From the NCBI RefSeq assembly GCF_038405225.1, contig NZ_CP151657.1:3162001-3226000 (forward strand): DNA of 64,000 bases, read 5' to 3'. The position numbers and the translations under genes are program-made. The notes beneath the pieces are model-generated. The model searched no databases. It was given only the letters and a program-made list of their open reading frames with translations, and was not told the origin of the DNA. Of the stretch, positions 21,958 through 55,471 are shown piece by piece. Numbering within the stretch: the first letter of the stretch is position 1; each line of letters begins with the position of its first letter. Source of the DNA: Arthrobacter citreus (GTDB taxonomy: Bacteria; Actinomycetota; Actinomycetes; Actinomycetales; Micrococcaceae).

Positions 21958-21999
21958 AAAGAGAAACACCCCGGTCCGAAGACCGGGGTGTTTCTCTTT
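21958..21999. terminator. bidirectional intrinsic terminator
   Basis: A perfect 19-bp stem, 21958-21976 against 21981-21999, with a CGAA loop and A/T-rich outer ends (AAAGAGAAA / TTTCTCTTT). It terminates the hydantoinase operon rightward and the tRNA-Ser gene leftward. Confidence 0.9.
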
Positions 22000-22876: not shown

Positions 22877-22912
22877 GTTGAGGTCCGCACCATAAATGGT
22901 GCGGACCTCAAC
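22877..22912 (-). terminator. rRNA operon terminator
   Basis: A long GC-rich hairpin (arm GAGGTCCGCACCAT and its inverse, about 15 bp) immediately after the 5S gene in transcription direction. It is followed on the minus strand by only a short A/T-rich stretch (AACTGTTTAA). Confidence 0.8.
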
Positions 22913-45139: not shown

Positions 45140-47446
45140 ATGACCGTTTCCGCAGCCTCCACCGAGGCGAAGAAATTCCGTATCGACACCGTCGAACACG
45201 CAGCCGCCACTCCTGAAACGCAGCTTCCCTGGGCCGAACTGGGCCTGAAGGAAGACGAGTTCAACCGCGTCGTCGAAATCCTGGGCCGCCGCCCCACCGC
45301 CGCGGAACTGGCAATGTACTCGGTCATGTGGTCCGAGCACTGCTCCTACAAGTCCTCCAAGGTGCACCTGAAGCAGTTCGGTGACAAGGTCACCGAGAAG
45401 ATGAAGGAACACCTGCTGGTCGGCATCGGCGAGAACGCCGGCGTCGTGGACATCGGTGATGGCTGGGCCGTGACGTTCAAGGTCGAATCCCACAACCACC
45501 CCTCCTTTGTGGAGCCCTACCAGGGCGCCGCGACCGGCGTCGGCGGCATTGTCCGCGACATCATCTCCATGGGCGCCCGCCCGGTCGCCGTGATGGATCC
45601 GCTGCGTTTCGGCGCCATCGACCACCCCGACACCGCCCGGCTGGTGCACGGCATCGTCTCCGGCATCGGCGGCTACGGCAACTCGCTCGGCCTGCCGAAC
45701 ATCGGCGGCGAGCTGGTCTTCGACTCCGTTTACCAGGGCAACCCGCTGGTCAACGCACTGGCCGTGGGCGTCATGCGCCACGAGGACATCCGCCTGGCCA
45801 ACGCCTCCGGCACCGGGAACAAGGTGGTGCTCTTCGGCGCGCGCACCGGCGGCGACGGCATTGGCGGCGCCTCGGTGCTGGCCTCCGAGTCCTTCGATTC
45901 CACCAAGCCGTCCAAGCGCCCCGCGGTGCAGGTGGGCGACCCGTTCGCCGAAAAGGTCCTCATCGAGTGCTGCCTGGAACTGTTCAAGGCCTCCGTGGTC
46001 GAGGGCATCCAGGACCTGGGGGCTGCCGGCATTTCCTGCGCGACGTCGGAGCTCGCCTCCAATGGCGACGGCGGCATGCACGTGGAGCTGACCAATGTGC
46101 TGCTGCGCGATCCCACCCTGACCCCGGGCGAAATCCTGATGTCCGAGTCGCAGGAACGCATGATGGCCGTGGTGACGCCGGAGAACGTCGAGGCGTTTGA
46201 AGCGATCATGGCCAAGTGGAACGTGGAGTACTCCTGGCTCGGCGAGGTCACCGGCACCGGACGCCTGGTCATCGACTGGGCCGGCGAAACCATTGTCGAC
46301 GTCGACCCCAAGACCGTGGCCCACGAAGGCCCCGTGTACAACCGCCCGTTCCACCGCCCCGAAGGCCAGGACAAGCTGCAGGCGGATTCCTTCGCCGAAA
46401 CCCGTCCGTTCGGCAGCGAAGCGGTCAAGAAGACCATCCTGGAACTGATGGCGTCGCCGAACATGTGCGACAAATCCTGGGTCACCAATCAGTTTGACCG
46501 CTACGTGCAGGGCAACACCGCACTGGCCATGCCCGACGACGCCGGCGTGATCCGCGTGGATGAAACCACCGGGCTCGGGGTTGCCATCTCCACCGACGCC
46601 AACGGCCGTTACGCCTACCTGGACCCGTACGAGGGCGCGAAGCTGGCCCTGGCCGAGTCCTACCGCAACGTCGCCACGTCCGGGGCAACACCGCTGGCCG
46701 TGTCCGACTGCCTGAACTTCGGCTCCCCCGAGGATCCCGAGGTCATGTGGCAGTTCGCCGAGGCCGTCCGCGGCCTGGCGGACGGCTGCCAGGAGCTGGG
46801 CATCCCGGTCACCGGCGGCAACGTGTCGCTGTACAACCAGACCGGCGGCGTCGCCATCCACCCCACCCCCGTGGTGGGCGTGCTGGGAGTGTTCGACGAC
46901 GTCGCGCGCCGCACGCCGTCGGGCTGGCGTGAAGACGGGCAGGCGATTTACCTGATGGGCGTCACGAAGGACGAGCTGGACGGCTCGGAATTCGCGAACC
47001 TGCGCGGACACCTGGGCGGCCGGCCGCCGGCTGTGGACCTGCAGCGCGAAAAGCTGCTCGGCGAACTGCTGGTCAACGCCTCCCGTGACGGCATGATTGA
47101 CGCCGCCCACGACCTCTCCGAGGGCGGCCTCGCTGCGGCACTGTCCGAAATGGCGCTGCGCTTCGGCGTCGGGGCCCGGATCGGGCTGGATGAAGTCTGT
47201 GAGCGCGACGGCGTGGACCTGTTCACCCTGCTGTTCTCCGAAACTCAGTCCCGCGCCCTGGTCTCCGTGGCCCGCAGCGAAGAGGTCCGGTTCAAGGACA
47301 TGTGCGGTGCCCGCGGCTACGCCCACATGCGGATTGGCGTGGTGGATACCGAGATTGGCGCCCTGGACTTCCAGGGCCACTTCTCGCTGCCGCTGTCGGA
47401 GCTGAAGGAAGCCTACGAGGGGACCCTGCCGAAGCACTTCGGCTAA
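45140..47446 (+). CDS. purL: phosphoribosylformylglycinamidine synthase subunit PurL
   Basis: A 768-residue small-type PurL (the large E. coli form is about 1300). Landmarks are [52 protein letters not shown] and [12 protein letters not shown]. It catalyses ATP-dependent conversion of FGAR to FGAM using ammonia from PurQ. ATG 45140 directly abuts the purQ stop. Followed by a convergent gene beyond a palindromic repeat. Confidence 0.97.
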
Positions 47447-47484: not shown

Positions 47485-47544
47485 CCCGAGATGGCAGACA
47501 GTGCGGTTCTCAGCCCTGAGAGCCGCACTGTCTGCCATTTCGGG
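47485..47544. repeat. long palindrome, copy 1 of a REP-like pair
   Basis: A 28-bp stem (47485-47512 with 47517-47544) broken only by two G-T wobbles, with loop GCCC. The core reads CAGACAGTGCGGTTCTCAG then CCCTGAGAGCCGCACTGTC. The same sequence, inverted and partly diverged, lies at 48557-48620 on the other side of the DUF559 gene, whose last codons and stop (47510) fall inside this palindrome. Confidence 0.85.
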
Positions 47545-48505
47545 AAGCCTCCGCAGGGCCGAGACGCCAACCTGCAGCAATCAGCGCTGACCGGACCTTG
47601 TTAACGGCAGGCCCGCCGCCGTCGGCCATATGCCGCCGGGATATTCGAACCTCGGTCCAGCCCAGCGCCCGGATCCGTTCCTCGCGGCTGATGTCCCGTT
47701 CCACCTGACCGGGTTCGGAGTGCCCCGCGCCCTCATACTCCACGGCCACCCTGTATTCGGGGTAGGAAAGGTCCGGCTGATGGTGCATATTGCCCGCAGT
47801 ATCAGGAACCGGCGCATTCACCAGCGGTTCGGGCAGCCCTGCGTCCACCAGCGCCAGCCGAAGCAGCGTTTCCGGAGGCGAATCCGCTCCCATACGGCTC
47901 AGGTCCAAGGCCAGCCTGGCCTTCCGGATCCCCCGTTTGCCGGTATGCCGGTCGATGACCTCCTGCAAAGACTCCTTGGTGGCATACGGCGCCGTCCTGT
48001 TTTCATACTCGGGACGGGGGATGCGGATCAAATGGTCTGCTATGACTGTGAGATCCGGGACGGTCAGACGCTGGGCCAGGTCAAGCCATGTCCGTTCCCT
48101 CGATGTCAGCGACAGTCCGTCCACGACACAGATCTCCCCCGCGAACATTTGTCCGGTGTGTCCGCTGACTCCTCCACGCCGCTGCGGAGACATGCCGGTG
48201 AGCCTCGTAATGTGCAGCATGCCGTCGTCGGCGAAGTGCGGCATCGGAAACTCCCAGACTTCGGCCGCGGAGTAGTGGGATGCGACGGAATAGGGAGTCA
48301 CTTGGGTGAATGCCCGGTAGCGGCGTTGCGGGGGCATGCTTTGCAGGTCGGCCAGGTCCTGGGAATCCACCCACCGGATGGACCGGCTCAGGCGGGTAAT
48401 CCGGGCGTGCCGCAGTCGGCCGCGGGAAATGCCGGACGCATCTGCCTCACTGACGGTGAAAGGGCCAGCAGTCAACCCCTGGGGCAACGGTTCAGGAATA
48501 CGCAT
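47510..48505 (-). CDS. DUF559 / VSR-like endonuclease-domain protein with AbiEi-like N-terminus
   Basis: A 331-residue protein. The N-terminus LTAGPFTVSEADASGISRGR resembles the winged-helix opening found in AbiEi-like proteins and in many actinobacterial DUF559 proteins, which supports ATG 48505 over earlier starts. The C-terminal 110 residues form the VSR/DUF559 nuclease fold: SPPETLLRLALVDAGLPEPL, then PDLSYPEYRVAVEYEGAGHS with the acidic residues D...E-Y-E, and RDISREERIRALGWTEVRIS. The function is unknown; multi-copy genes of this type are common in related genomes. It is bracketed by two inverted copies of one palindrome, and its final ten residues are encoded within one of them. Confidence 0.75.
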   Translation of the reverse strand: MRIPEPLPQGLTAGPFTVSEADASGISRGRLRHARITRLSRSIRWVDSQDLADLQSMPPQRRYRAFTQVTPYSVASHYSAAEVWEFPMPHFADDGMLHITRLTGMSPQRRGGVSGHTGQMFAGEICVVDGLSLTSRERTWLDLAQRLTVPDLTVIADHLIRIPRPEYENRTAPYATKESLQEVIDRHTGKRGIRKARLALDLSRMGADSPPETLLRLALVDAGLPEPLVNAPVPDTAGNMHHQPDLSYPEYRVAVEYEGAGHSEPGQVERDISREERIRALGWTEVRISRRHMADGGGPAVNKVRSALIAAGWRLGPAEASRNGRQCGSQG

Positions 48506-48556
48506 GCGAGAAGAATGGCCCTTTCGCATTTCCTCTGCAGCGGCTATCCACACCCT

Positions 48557-48620
48557 CCCGCGAACTGGCTGAAAGTGCACGTTTCAGGGCTGGGAAGCGC
48601 ACTTTCTGCCAGTTCGCGGG
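48557..48620. repeat. long palindrome, copy 2 of a REP-like pair
   Basis: 30-nt arms (48557-48586 with 48591-48620) with three mismatches and two wobbles, loop GGGC. The reverse complement contains CAGAAAGTGCGCTTCCCAG then CCCTGAAACGTGCACTTTC, clearly the same element as 47485-47544 in opposite orientation (shared words TGGCAGA, AGTGCG, CAGCCCTGA, GCACT, GCCA). It lies 52 bp before the start of the DUF559 gene. Confidence 0.85.
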
Positions 48621-48734
48621 AACAGGAGCTGGGCCGTCGCGGGAAGGGGGCGCGCGAAGAGTCGGCCCGGGACGCGAAAAAGATACTGGTCACGAAATTG
48701 CGGTAAATCCGGCGCGGGCGTGGACAATTAGCCA

Positions 48735-49310
48735 GTGACCTTGACCCCTGACCACACAGCATCGGCCGCGGAACCCCCCGTCCCGGCCACCGGTCCCGCC
48801 AGCGCTTCGGCCGGGCTTTCCACCGAGCGGCTGCAGCTGACTCCCATCACCGCCGCGGAGCTGGACGCCCTGATCGTCCAGTCCCGGCTCCCGGACTGGG
48901 CCCCGGATTTTCCACAGCCCACTGACCACGACGCCGCCCGGCAGTTCTTCGAAGCGGGCCTGAGCACCGTGGAAAAGGCCCTGAGCACCCGCCTCATCCG
49001 CGAACGCTCAACGGACCAGGTGGTGGGGACCATCGGCTTCCTGCTGCTGCCCGAAGAAGGGGACGTTGAGGTCAGCTACAGCATCGTCCCGTCACGGCGC
49101 GGCCAGGGCTACGCCACCGAAGCGCTCACCACGCTGGCACGGCACGCCCTGGACCAGGATGCGGTGTCGCGGGTCATCGCCTACACGGAGCCCGAAAACG
49201 ACGCATCCCAGGCACTGCTGCTCACGGCCGGATTCCTCCCCGTCGAGACTCCGGGCATGGGGCTGGGCTTCATCCTTCAGGCAGCTGCGCTGCCCGAAGC
49301 CAACGTGTAG
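48735..49310 (+). CDS. GNAT-family N-acetyltransferase
   Basis: A 191-residue protein starting at GTG 48735. After a Pro/Ala-rich N-terminus, LSTERLQLTPITAAELDALI begins a RimJ/RimL-type GNAT domain. VEVSYSIVPSRRGQGYATEAL holds the acetyl-CoA loop R-R-G-Q-G-Y-A, and YTEPENDASQALLLTAGF the second conserved motif. The substrate is unknown. The end overlaps the convergent DUF1990 gene by 34 bp. Confidence 0.85.
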   Translation: MTLTPDHTASAAEPPVPATGPASASAGLSTERLQLTPITAAELDALIVQSRLPDWAPDFPQPTDHDAARQFFEAGLSTVEKALSTRLIRERSTDQVVGTIGFLLLPEEGDVEVSYSIVPSRRGQGYATEALTTLARHALDQDAVSRVIAYTEPENDASQALLLTAGFLPVETPGMGLGFILQAAALPEANV

Positions 49311-51631: not shown

Positions 51632-51670
51632 GTGCCGTCCTTTGTGGGAGCCGTGATGGGGCTCCAGCTT

Positions 51671-51718
51671 ACGCCGGGGCTGCGGACACCCGCGAGGAGG
51701 TGTCCGCAGCCCCGGCGT
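51671..51718. terminator. strong GC-rich terminator hairpin
   Basis: A perfect 20-bp stem (51671-51690 with 51699-51718; arm ACGCCGGGGCTGCGGACACC) and 8-base loop between the surface-protein gene and the CoA-binding gene, both on the minus strand. It ends the long surface-protein transcript. A short T-run (AAGC beyond) is poor, so it may also protect the mRNA 3' end. Confidence 0.75.
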
Positions 51719-51736
51719 TATGCGGAGGAAACCCGG

Positions 51737-54700
51737 CTACAGATCCTCGCCGGATCCGCGGCGCCGCTTAGCCGCCAGGAGCAGCAAGGCCCCAAGCCCC
51801 AGGGCTCCGGCTCCCGCCGACATCACCAGAACCGTCCCGTCGCTGCCGGTTGTGGGGAGCTTCCCCCGCTTTCCGGGCTTCTCCGGCTTTTCCGGAGCGG
51901 GTGTTGGCGCCGGCGTCGGAGCTGGTGTCGGCGTCGGCGTCGGAGTCGGAGTCGGCTCCACTACGGTGTAGGCATTGGTTACCGTGAGGCTGGCTGAACC
52001 GCCGGCCGCCACTGCAACCGGATCCGGCAGCGTGGTCTGCACGGTCACGGTTTCGCTGCTGCCGTTTGCCGGCTCCGTCACCACACACTCCGATCCTGCC
52101 TGCACGCCGGGAGTTTCCTGGCTGTAGCTGCCGGTGAAGCCGGACGGAACCGTGATCTCGGTTTCCAGGGTCAGGTCCTCACCAATAGCGCACCGGAGCA
52201 TGAGCCTGACCTCACCCTGTTGTCCGGCGGCGCCTCCCGTAATCGCCTTGGTGACGGTGACAACTCCGGGGTTGAAGCCGTAGGTGTTGGTTACCGTTCC
52301 CGCCACCGAGCCGCCGCCCACGATCGTCAGGACACCCGGAAGATCCGTGGTGACTCCAACTTCCGCAGTGGAACCGGTAACCGGCTCCGTCACGGTGCAT
52401 TCGGCTCCGGTGGGGACGGTGTCGAAAGTCCAGGCGCTGGGGTCCGTGGTCCCGGCGGCAACCGTGACCGTTTCATTCAGGACCTCAACATCACCGGAGA
52501 GGCACACGACGTTCAACTGGATCTCGCCCTGCTCCCCGGCTGCTTCACCGGCCACGACCTTGTTCAGCACCAGCGAACCGGCGATGAAGGTGTAGGTGTT
52601 GGCCACCACGGCTTCCGCACCGTCACCGGCCGGAATCGTGACCGGGTCCGGCAGATCGGTCTGCACGCCAACGGTTTCCGTTGCGCCGGTGACCGGTTCA
52701 GTCACCGTGCACTCGGCTCCGGCGGGCAGGTCCTCAAAGGCCGTCTCGAAGGTCTCTGTTTCGCCGCCCGGGATGTTGACCGTCTCATTCAGCACGGTGC
52801 CGCCGTCGTCGGTGCAGACGACGAGCAGCTGCACGTCTCCCTGGGAACCCGCGGCCTCGCCGGCAAAGGTTTTACGCACTGCCAGCGTGCCCGGGTTGAA
52901 GGAATACGTGTTGGTCACCTGCGCCTCGACCACGTCCCCTGCGGGAATGGTGACGGGATCCGGTGTTACGGTGACCACCGAAATGGCGCCCGTGGTGCCG
53001 GCACTGGTTTCCGTCACGGTGCACTCGGTTCCTGCCGGAATGTTGCGGAACTGGGCATCTCCGGTGCCCGTAATGCCCGGCTGGATGTTCCAGGTTTCGA
53101 GCAGAACCGATCCGTCCGGTCCGCAGCTGACAACGATGGTGATCGCCTCTTGAAGGCCCGCTGCCTCGCCGTCAACCGTCTTGAACACCTGCAGGACACC
53201 GGGTTTGAGGGTGTAGGTGTTGGTCACCGTTGCGGTGGCCGCGCCCCCGGCCGGGACGACCACCGTGTCCGGCAGCGCCACATCCACCGCAACAGTCGCC
53301 GTTTCACCGGTCGCCGGTTCGGTAACATCACACTCGGCGTTGGCCGGAATGTCCGTGAAGGTCTGGGAAACACCGGTGGCTGATCCCGCGGCCAGTGAAA
53401 CGGTCTCGTTCAGCACGGTGGCTCCGTCACTGGTGCAGGTCACCTGCAGGGTCACTGCGCCCTGCTGTCCCGCCGCCGGCCCGGCCAGCGCCTTCGTTAC
53501 GGTCAGGCTGCCCGGGTTGAGCGTGTAGGTGTCGGTCACCGTGATTTCCGCGCCGCCGGCGGGTGGAATAACTACGTCTCCGGTGCTTTCCGTGACGACG
53601 CCGACGGCGGTGGTGGCGCCGGTGGACGTTTCCACCACGGTGCAGGTGGCGCCCGCGGGGACACCTGGATATTCGTTCCGAATGGTGTCGGTGGAACCGG
53701 CGGGAATGGTAATGGTTTGGCTGAACACGGTGGTGCCGGCGCTGGTGCAGGTCAGCGAGAGCACCACGTCGCCCTGCTGCCCGGCCGCGGCACCGGCAAT
53801 GACCTTGTTGACCGCGATGACGCCGGGGTTATAGGTGTAGTCGTTGCTGACCGTGCTGGTCACGCTGTCAGCAACCGGAATCGTCACGTCGGCGGGAAGG
53901 GTGGGCGTCGCCGTCACTTCGGTGGTGCTGCCGGTGGTTGGTTCGGTGACGGTGCAGACCGTCCCGGCGGGCACATCGGCGAATTCCGTGGTGAAGGGCT
54001 CAGTCTGTCCGGCCGGAATGGTCACCGTGGTGTTCAGTGCGGTGCCGCAGACGACCTGCAGGACAACCACACCGTGGTTGCCGGCAGCTTCACCGGTGAA
54101 TAGCTTTTCCACCACCAGGGTGCCCGGAGCGAACGTGTAGGTGTCGGTGACCGTGGCCTGCGCCGCCGTTCCGGCCTCGATAGTGACGGGCTGCGGCAGC
54201 GCCGTACTGACGAGGACGGTGTCTGTGGCCCCGGTGACGGGTTCTGTCACGGTGCAGGTGTTGCCAACGGGAATCCCGGTGAAGGTTTGGGACGCCCCGG
54301 TGGTGCTGCCGGCTTCCACCTCAAGGGTGAACTGATATCCGGTTCCGCAGTCGATGGCGATGGTGACCGCTTCTTGGCTGCCGGCTGCTTCGCCGAGAAT
54401 GGTCTTGGTGACCGTCAGGGATCCGACGGCGAAGAATTCCGCGGTGGCGGTGGCGGTGCTGGACAGGTCCCGGGTGTTGGCCAGAATCAGTTTTTGCGCT
54501 GCCGTCACGTCGGGATTGGTGCCGTCATACAGGTAGACGTTGCCGGTGGGCACCGTGACCACCGCCCGCGCGGTGACCATCGCCGGGTCCGTGCTGCCCG
54601 TATCGCTGCGGACCCACACCTGGGTTCCCGATGGCACCGGATTTTCCAGCGGCTGGGTGCCCGCCGCGTCGGTGTAGAGGCTGTAGCCGGCAGGAACGCT

Positions 54701-55471
54701 GACAGTCACTGTGGCGGCGTCTTCGGCGGCAACCGTGTAAGGACCGGTGACCCCGTCAGTGGGGCCGGCTGCCGTGGCCGGGGTGATGCTGATGTCCGGC
54801 GCGTCCGGTTCGGTAAGGGGGCCGGCGGCGACCGTGGCGTTCACGATCGCTTGGACGGCCGGGTACAGCGCGTTGCGGGGATTCACGACGTAGCCGTCGC
54901 TGAAGAACCAGATGGCCGCCTGGACGGCTGCCGCCCGCTGATTGTTATTCAGCCCCGCCGGCTGGTTGGGGACGGCGGGGTAGTACGAGTTGAGGATCCG
55001 GTTGACGTAGCCAATGTTGGGCACGGTCGCTTCGTCCCACGTGCCGTTCTCATAACCGATCCCGACACGGGTTTCGGTGCGGATATCGATGCAGTACATG
55101 GGCGCCGTTGTTTCGCCGTTAATGTCCTCGGTAACGATGACGCCGGCGAAACTCGGGTTATTGGTTTCGTAGCCTTGCGGGATGGATGTCGGGTACGTCG
55201 TGACCGGCCACGTGGTCCCCACCGGAGGCAGGGCTCCCGTCAGGGCCTGCCCCTCCCCCAGTCGGCTGATGACAATGTCGGTGTTGGGGCCGTAAGGCCC
55301 GTTAGCCGTCGGGACCCCCCGCACAAATTCGATTCTGGCCGACGCCGGAGAAGCGAGCGGGGCAGCCACCATCAGCAGCGCCAGGAGCACCCCCAGCAGG
55401 CCGCGTCCGGTAACTTGCAACGGCTTTCTCAGCGCTCCGTGGTGTGCTGCGGAAAGTGGTTGTGAACTCAT
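51737..55471 (-). CDS. LPXTG surface protein with thioester-type domain and eight DUF5979-like repeats
   Basis: A 1244-residue wall-anchored protein. A signal peptide (about 20-45, LLGVLLALLMVAAPLASPAS) precedes an N-terminal domain with YCID (Cys127) and VQAAIWFFSDG (Gln184), the Cys/Gln pair of thioester (TQXA) adhesin domains that can bond covalently to host or matrix amines. Then a linker and eight repeats of about 105 residues (about 351-1190), each opening like GSLTVTK...GEAAG and closing like VTNTYTF, each with two Cys (in VxC and xCTVTEP). A Thr/Pro stretch leads to LPTTG (1205-1209), a membrane helix and KRRR. Sortase-linked adhesin. No sortase gene lies nearby. Confidence 0.88.
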   Translation of the reverse strand: MSSQPLSAAHHGALRKPLQVTGRGLLGVLLALLMVAAPLASPASARIEFVRGVPTANGPYGPNTDIVISRLGEGQALTGALPPVGTTWPVTTYPTSIPQGYETNNPSFAGVIVTEDINGETTAPMYCIDIRTETRVGIGYENGTWDEATVPNIGYVNRILNSYYPAVPNQPAGLNNNQRAAAVQAAIWFFSDGYVVNPRNALYPAVQAIVNATVAAGPLTEPDAPDISITPATAAGPTDGVTGPYTVAAEDAATVTVSVPAGYSLYTDAAGTQPLENPVPSGTQVWVRSDTGSTDPAMVTARAVVTVPTGNVYLYDGTNPDVTAAQKLILANTRDLSSTATATAEFFAVGSLTVTKTILGEAAGSQEAVTIAIDCGTGYQFTLEVEAGSTTGASQTFTGIPVGNTCTVTEPVTGATDTVLVSTALPQPVTIEAGTAAQATVTDTYTFAPGTLVVEKLFTGEAAGNHGVVVLQVVCGTALNTTVTIPAGQTEPFTTEFADVPAGTVCTVTEPTTGSTTEVTATPTLPADVTIPVADSVTSTVSNDYTYNPGVIAVNKVIAGAAAGQQGDVVLSLTCTSAGTTVFSQTITIPAGSTDTIRNEYPGVPAGATCTVVETSTGATTAVGVVTESTGDVVIPPAGGAEITVTDTYTLNPGSLTVTKALAGPAAGQQGAVTLQVTCTSDGATVLNETVSLAAGSATGVSQTFTDIPANAECDVTEPATGETATVAVDVALPDTVVVPAGGAATATVTNTYTLKPGVLQVFKTVDGEAAGLQEAITIVVSCGPDGSVLLETWNIQPGITGTGDAQFRNIPAGTECTVTETSAGTTGAISVVTVTPDPVTIPAGDVVEAQVTNTYSFNPGTLAVRKTFAGEAAGSQGDVQLLVVCTDDGGTVLNETVNIPGGETETFETAFEDLPAGAECTVTEPVTGATETVGVQTDLPDPVTIPAGDGAEAVVANTYTFIAGSLVLNKVVAGEAAGEQGEIQLNVVCLSGDVEVLNETVTVAAGTTDPSAWTFDTVPTGAECTVTEPVTGSTAEVGVTTDLPGVLTIVGGGSVAGTVTNTYGFNPGVVTVTKAITGGAAGQQGEVRLMLRCAIGEDLTLETEITVPSGFTGSYSQETPGVQAGSECVVTEPANGSSETVTVQTTLPDPVAVAAGGSASLTVTNAYTVVEPTPTPTPTPTPAPTPAPTPAPEKPEKPGKRGKLPTTGSDGTVLVMSAGAGALGLGALLLLAAKRRRGSGEDL

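Follow-up and report, generated by a model that had tools for sequence, protein, structure and literature searches.

A predicted EDxHD/Vsr-fold nuclease gene between matched palindromes in Arthrobacter citreus: a candidate REPtron-like unit

The subject of this report is a gene and its two flanking palindromes in a 64-kb stretch of the Arthrobacter citreus chromosome (contig NZ_CP151657.1, positions 3162001-3226000 of a 3.88-Mb genome, here called G000), which will be referred to as the window. The palindromes enclose a single minus-strand gene for a predicted nuclease, and we consider that the three together probably form a co-evolving unit akin to the REPtrons, i.e., RAYT transposase genes accompanied by repetitive extragenic palindromic (REP) sequences, with an enzyme unrelated to RAYTs. 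In many members of this gene's family, palindromes are associated with the gene, the two members of a pair mostly match each other, their types are dispersed in genomes, and pairs turn over in concert while the gene stays in place.

A preliminary description of this DNA had noted two near-inverted copies of one palindrome around a single VSR/DUF559-type gene, and this is confirmed by a repeat search and by folding against shuffled sequences. In the inverted-repeat search, the arms of the palindrome at the 3' end of the gene (DN; 47485-47513 and 47516-47544) were 93% complementary and those of the upstream palindrome (UP; 48556-48587 and 48590-48621) were 84% complementary, and as wholes the two are inverted copies over 61 nt, with 79% complementarity. 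They are the two top-listed among 11 close inverted repeats of the window (arms of at least 16 nt, distance up to 60), and folding as DNA gave -32.5 kcal/mol (z -12.1) and -29.2 kcal/mol (z -7.7) for the two palindromes, energies that none of 200 shuffles of either one equalled.

Matched pairs across the family

Two sets of loci were compared. Set 1 consisted of 111 loci, namely the window gene, two paralogues from its own genome, and 108 other relatives, while for set 2 the best 80 were taken out of 179 named loci of Arthrobacter, Pseudarthrobacter, Paenarthrobacter, and their kin; at least eight loci are common to both, and the sets are not wholly independent. Hairpins scoring at least 16 were present upstream of 28, downstream of 44, and on both sides of 22 of the set 1 genes, the last figure rising to 26 at a score of at least 13. 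The upstream and downstream sequences match in 24 of these 26 loci, even though the sequence varies from gene to gene: the mean score of a locus with itself was 68.7, compared to 15.9 with shuffled partners (10,000 shuffles, maximum 31.7), and the self score was strictly the best in 20 of the 26, with four of the other six tying with, or losing to, only a sister orthologue. Set 2 behaved in the same manner, with 49 two-sided loci out of 80, self scores of at least 40 in 48 of these, and a mean of 81.8 versus 26.6 after shuffling (maximum 39.8); here 16% of the cross pairs also reach 40, as related loci share palindrome types. Hairpin density was 0.79 per kb near the genes and 0.016 in the far flanks for set 1, and 1.70 and 0.016, respectively, for set 2, a contrast that mainly sets intergenic against coding DNA and cannot serve as a fair control on its own. 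The proposed unit occurs in numerous genomes of the family to which the window belongs, and some genomes elsewhere in the order carry it as well.

Paralogues within one genome carry different pairs, as seen for L020, L055, and L063 in G037 and for L035, L070, and L097 in G036. A distant second family member in the window's own genome (L005, G000:C1:2159477-2160619) is flanked by identical 44-bp palindromes of another type, a further copy of which is listed at position 2717349.

The arms in set 2 follow a common layout, composed of an outer part, an invariant C, an A or G, a 7-nt core, an inner part, and the loop. Palindromes of the family are mostly between ∼42 and 74 bp long. There are 25 core types among the 49 two-sided loci. 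When the best match between upstream and downstream cores was taken at 44 loci, 31 had no mismatch, nine had one, two had two, and single loci had three and four; the mean was 0.45 within a locus, compared to 3.3 of 7 between loci (1.2 versus 3.5 over all filtered arm pairs). Most upstream palindromes start ∼112-135 bp ahead of the start of the matched reading frame, and, apart from a few, the downstream ones start between 66 bp ahead of the point where the matched stretch ends and 44 bp past it.

Dispersed copies and turnover at a fixed gene

The window-type palindrome was searched in 29 genomes of the genus by using a 46-nt pattern with up to three mismatches. Copies were found in nine of them: 20 in G000, 6 in G023, 4 in G010, 16 in G022, 18 in G005, 2 in G003, 25 in G025, 9 in G016, and 30 in G004; the same pattern written backward gave no match in these genomes. 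The type is thus present in all seven gene-bearing genomes and in two of the 22 gene-less ones, G016, which is nested among gene-bearing species, and G004. For the six gene-bearing genomes with fully listed copies, those away from the gene numbered 18 in G000, 2 in G010, 2 in G003, 18 in G005, 15 in G022, and 6 in G023.

Types other than that of the window are dispersed as well. When 20 hairpins from 12 genomes of 12 genera, picked at the gene, on which their link to it rests, were pooled and searched in those 12 genomes, 404 matches were obtained (one palindrome often being counted on both strands), and each hairpin matched its own genome only, among the matches listed. One type occupies at least 21 places in G036 besides the two at the gene. 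Scattered copies of the A. koreensis type were found in G023 and G025 and likewise in G022, where the gene now has another type, and it seems that genomes retain other palindrome types, which may be earlier ones. Palindromes were found to be linked to DUF559 genes elsewhere, and they do not occur only as ordinary terminators, the outcome that the preliminary description had named as fatal to its proposal, though many copies are placed like terminators.

Ten dispersed G000 sites could be aligned in G010 and judged by eye, with flanks ∼83-96% identical. The counterpart was the same type at L152 and L155, a diverged relative at L153 and L159, another hairpin at L147, L154, L158, and L162, and no hairpin at L148 and L161; dispersed copies, that is, vary in presence between species. 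The flanks of 43 copies are pyrimidine-rich on the left (mean 0.68) and purine-rich on the right (mean 0.63), a bias that is suggestive only. Two dispersed palindromes of G000, L150 and L151 (C1:2748273 and 2952601), stand directly ahead of a sequence that, by eye, resembles 5S rRNA genes.

Regarding their gene context, 42 copies from the best-hit loci of several genomes and from G000, three of them at the gene, were classified with a simple coding measure: 18 lie between convergent genes, 16 between tandem and 2 between divergent genes, 1 is inside a gene, and 5 were undecided. It is quite unlikely that the palindromes are simply bidirectional terminators, similar ones being common in the genus, that bracket the gene by chance. 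The convergent copies agree with such a role, as do the other hairpins held by orthologous sites in other species, some with a similar inner core, and the ordinary hairpins that also follow purL, the gene next to the nuclease gene, in many gene-less genomes (with scores of 16-18 in 5 of the 22). However, UP stands ahead of the gene, in a divergent gap of the window where no gene ends, and terminators need no matched sequence, yet the pairs match at each locus and differ between paralogues of one genome. A terminator role can, moreover, coexist with a REPtron-like unit.

The gene, in turn, keeps its place while its palindromes change. Among the 49 two-sided loci of set 2, 29 share both flanks with L303, four share one, and 16 share none, and 15 core types are found among the 29 loci, all at a single chromosomal place. 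Within the genus of the window, the orthologue (at least 59% identity) adjoins purL in all seven gene-bearing genomes, G000 included, with three palindrome types: G000 and G010 have a TGGCAG type, which G003 has in a more diverged form; G005 and G022 (A. citreus) share a TTACAGAAACTG type; and G023 and G025 (A. koreensis) share a GGCCA-TTACGG type. Two clades of the purL tree have the gene, and neither the type of G005/G022 nor that of G023/G025 follows the branching, which suggests that gene and palindromes may have been exchanged together. The preliminary description had envisaged that a VSR-like gene and REP-like hairpins travel or are maintained together. Maintenance is upheld by the matched gene-specific pairs, the dispersed types, and the co-occurrence in the genus; travel is not, as the gene sits at one locus in the genus and at 29 of the 49 set 2 loci.

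Two further comparisons concern the gain and loss of the gene. In G004, the nuclease gene is missing from its locus and a single intact palindrome of the window type stands between purL and the GNAT gene, as would be expected either of an empty target or after recombination between two palindromes had deleted the gene; the other 21 gene-less genomes have an ordinary hairpin there, or none at the threshold used. In the close pair G024/G006, in which pieces of the locus are mostly 90-93% identical, G024 (L272:6100-8560) holds a family gene and a hairpin array with an IS110-like gene (377 aa, named by look) inside it, while G006 matches only both ends of the G024 nuclease gene, so that a large internal deletion of this gene in G006 is likely from the alignment. 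The IS110-like gene within an array, together with the dispersal and the presence or absence of copies between species, could also point to repeats of the miniature inverted-repeat transposable element (MITE) type, moved by another transposase (e.g., an HUH/RAYT enzyme encoded elsewhere), with the gene merely lying between two of them. We regard this as very improbable, because several paralogues per genome each have their own matched, dispersed type (three in G036) and because both members of the pair change together around a gene that stays in place.

Several results weigh against a REPtron-like unit. The pair is far from universal, as only 22 of the 111 set 1 genes are flanked on each side by a hairpin scoring at least 16, and the pairs of L025 and L066 in set 1 and of L340 in set 2 are mismatched. 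The gene is immobile within the genus, no clear or consistent target duplication was seen at the compared G000/G010 sites, and no insertion mechanism was found. Orthologous sites in other species can hold a different hairpin, in some cases with a similar inner core, and the convergent and tandem copies, 18 and 16 of 42, have a terminator-like placement. Since the pooled genomes belonged to 12 genera, repeats restricted to single genomes would appear private in that search whatever their origin, and G022 (A. citreus) has at least 12 copies of a type differing from that now at its gene. The covariation between protein residues and core is weak (best partial r 0.283 versus a null maximum of 0.238 in 200 shuffles, not corrected for phylogeny). 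Finally, binding and cleavage of the palindrome by the protein are what we infer, not what was observed.

The predicted protein and a possible mechanism

Pfam matches of the window protein were MTES_1575 (E 2.8e-5), DUF559 (E 0.03), and AbiEi_4 (E 0.05), all under the curated cut-off, and MTES_1575, DUF559, and AbiEi recur among the proteins of the family; judged from these matches, the DUF559-type assignment of the gene is correct, though weak. Residues ∼2-204 of the protein are predicted from the fold to form an AbiEi-like region, to which a Vsr/EDxHD-type nuclease domain, likewise predicted, is joined at residues ∼207-313. A first Foldseek search against the PDB gave no match at E ≤0.001, and the domain matches, AbiEi antitoxin for the N-terminal part and EDxHD/Vsr for the C-terminal domain, come from a second search. 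E212, D245, H262, and D271 are invariant in 60 of 60 aligned family members and presumably constitute the EDxHD motif, i.e., the putative active-site residues. Relatives are encoded on eight plasmid records and one phage record; the latter (MT837503.1:4953-5972, a 6.7-kb record titled Bacteriophage sp.) has a near full-length relative, covering 95% of the query with 35.5% identity.

The AbiEi antitoxin regulates its own expression through inverted repeats. The palindromes might, by the same token, be operators through which the AbiEi-like region represses its own gene, with the dispersed copies being regulatory and no mobility involved, and the match of the N-terminal part and the position of most set 2 upstream palindromes ahead of the reading frame are in line with this. 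We hold this explanation to be unlikely nonetheless, as it leaves unexplained why the gene has a matched copy at its 3' end, why a genome can have as many as 30 copies, often close to the 3' ends of genes, and why the residues of the putative nuclease active site are invariant.

For the REPtron-like unit, the following scheme can be drawn, in which we infer that the nuclease recognizes and cleaves the palindrome and drives its spread. The predicted protein would bind the ∼60-bp palindrome as a dimer, with one monomer per arm and with specificity conferred by the 7-nt core, and the dimer would nick or cut the palindrome. Repair copied from another copy would then homogenize the flanking pair, and would also spread the palindrome to tolerated intergenic places, often the 3' ends of genes. 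At gene ends the palindromes may also terminate transcription, which could explain copies that survive the loss of the gene. The dimer is proposed by analogy with I-Bth0305I, an EDxHD homing endonuclease (PDB 3r3p) reported to be dimeric on nearly 60 bp (PMC3943268). Homing endonucleases of this kind differ from the system described here, for which no intron was seen and which has two target-like flanking palindromes and dispersed copies; in addition, their DNA-binding part is of phage type, whereas here it is AbiEi-like.

As for the other enzymes with related parts, the window protein has an N-terminal region added with respect to the Vsr mismatch-repair endonuclease (PDB 1cw0), and its AbiEi-like region is joined to a nuclease domain, unlike that of the AbiEi antitoxin (type IV toxin-antitoxin, PDB 6y8q). 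To our knowledge, no palindromes are linked to the Vsr mismatch-repair endonuclease. An AbiEii nucleotidyltransferase was not found directly beside the gene, which is adjoined by purL and GNAT both in the window and in six other genomes of the genus, nothing further out having been searched.

The closest parallel is that with the RAYT-REP units, described in the accessible text of two papers as a gene between two inverted palindromes whose type is dispersed intergenically, with several repeat-specific units per genome and some genomes with repeats and no unit (PMC2817692, PMC3733652). The flanking inverted palindromes of one type, the intergenic dispersal, the several units per genome, and the carriers of repeats without a unit are all features shared with the present system. 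In contrast, the RAYT is a tyrosine (IS200/605-type) transposase, while the enzyme here is a predicted EDxHD/Vsr-fold nuclease with an AbiEi-like region; the REPs measure 20-40 bp in those sources, which is shorter than most of the palindromes described here; and the hosts here are actinobacterial. REPs also have a GTAG/CGTC end tag, and no such tag exceeds chance at the ends of the 98 set 2 hairpins: in the zone from 6 nt outside to 4 nt inside a hairpin end, GTAG was found in 8 and CGTC in 7, with ∼5 expected by chance, while GTAG is within the stem in 43. Lacking both the tyrosine transposase and the end tags, the unit is not a member of the REPtrons, though it may work alike.

There is about an even chance, in our estimate, that these genes represent a new class of selfish or domesticated elements, in which EDxHD/Vsr-fold nucleases with an AbiEi-like DNA-reading part would each recognize, homogenize, and spread a private ∼60-bp palindrome, with a fast-turnover 7-nt core common to the arms at the gene and to the dispersed copies. 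If so, they would be a second, independent route to families of extragenic palindromes, based on an enzyme unrelated to RAYTs, and would assign a role to nucleases that have so far had only the family names DUF559/MTES_1575. CGTC-type REPs have been reported, in the accessible text of PMC3733652, without a dedicated transposase, which makes other enzyme partners an open question. Moreover, as their cores change while the locus stays fixed, these naturally occurring pairs of protein and matched palindrome offer material for reading how such nucleases select DNA. No description of an association between DUF559/MTES_1575/Vsr-like nucleases and palindromes was found in the literature, most subscription papers being outside the search.

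The window locus and its neighbors

The features of the locus are collected in Table 1. The nuclease gene and the gene that we take, from its sequence, to be purL converge on the DN palindrome, and the stop codon of the nuclease gene falls within this palindrome. The UP palindrome occupies the divergent gap between the nuclease and GNAT genes, and an alternative, longer frame of the nuclease gene begins at a GTG within this palindrome.

Table 1. Features of the nuclease locus, in window coordinates
Feature	Position	Strand	Remarks
purL (presumed)	45140..47446	+	neighbor marking the locus in related species
DN palindrome	47485..47544		29-nt arms, 2-nt center; overlaps 3' end of nuclease gene
nuclease gene	47510..48505	-	331 aa; start ATG 48505 (chosen), stop 47510-47512
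UP palindrome	48556..48621		32-nt arms; ∼50 bp upstream of nuclease start codon
GNAT-family acetyltransferase gene	48735..49310	+	second locus-marking neighbor; named by look

An RNA family at the palindromes was considered and rejected: of the seven Rfam matches in the window with E values up to 0.1, six place microRNA precursors on the palindromes, far under the gathering scores, as is usual for near-perfect hairpins, and the seventh, Ocean-VII, is inside purL. A third strong hairpin of the window, at 51662-51727, has 29-nt arms that are 86% complementary and a sequence unrelated to DN and UP, and perfect inverted repeats with 19- and 17-nt arms are present at 21958-21999 and 22877-22912, respectively. 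Lastly, positions 51737-55471 of the minus strand encode a 1244-aa protein of repeated domains with, by eye, an LPTTG-like sorting signal at its C-terminus.
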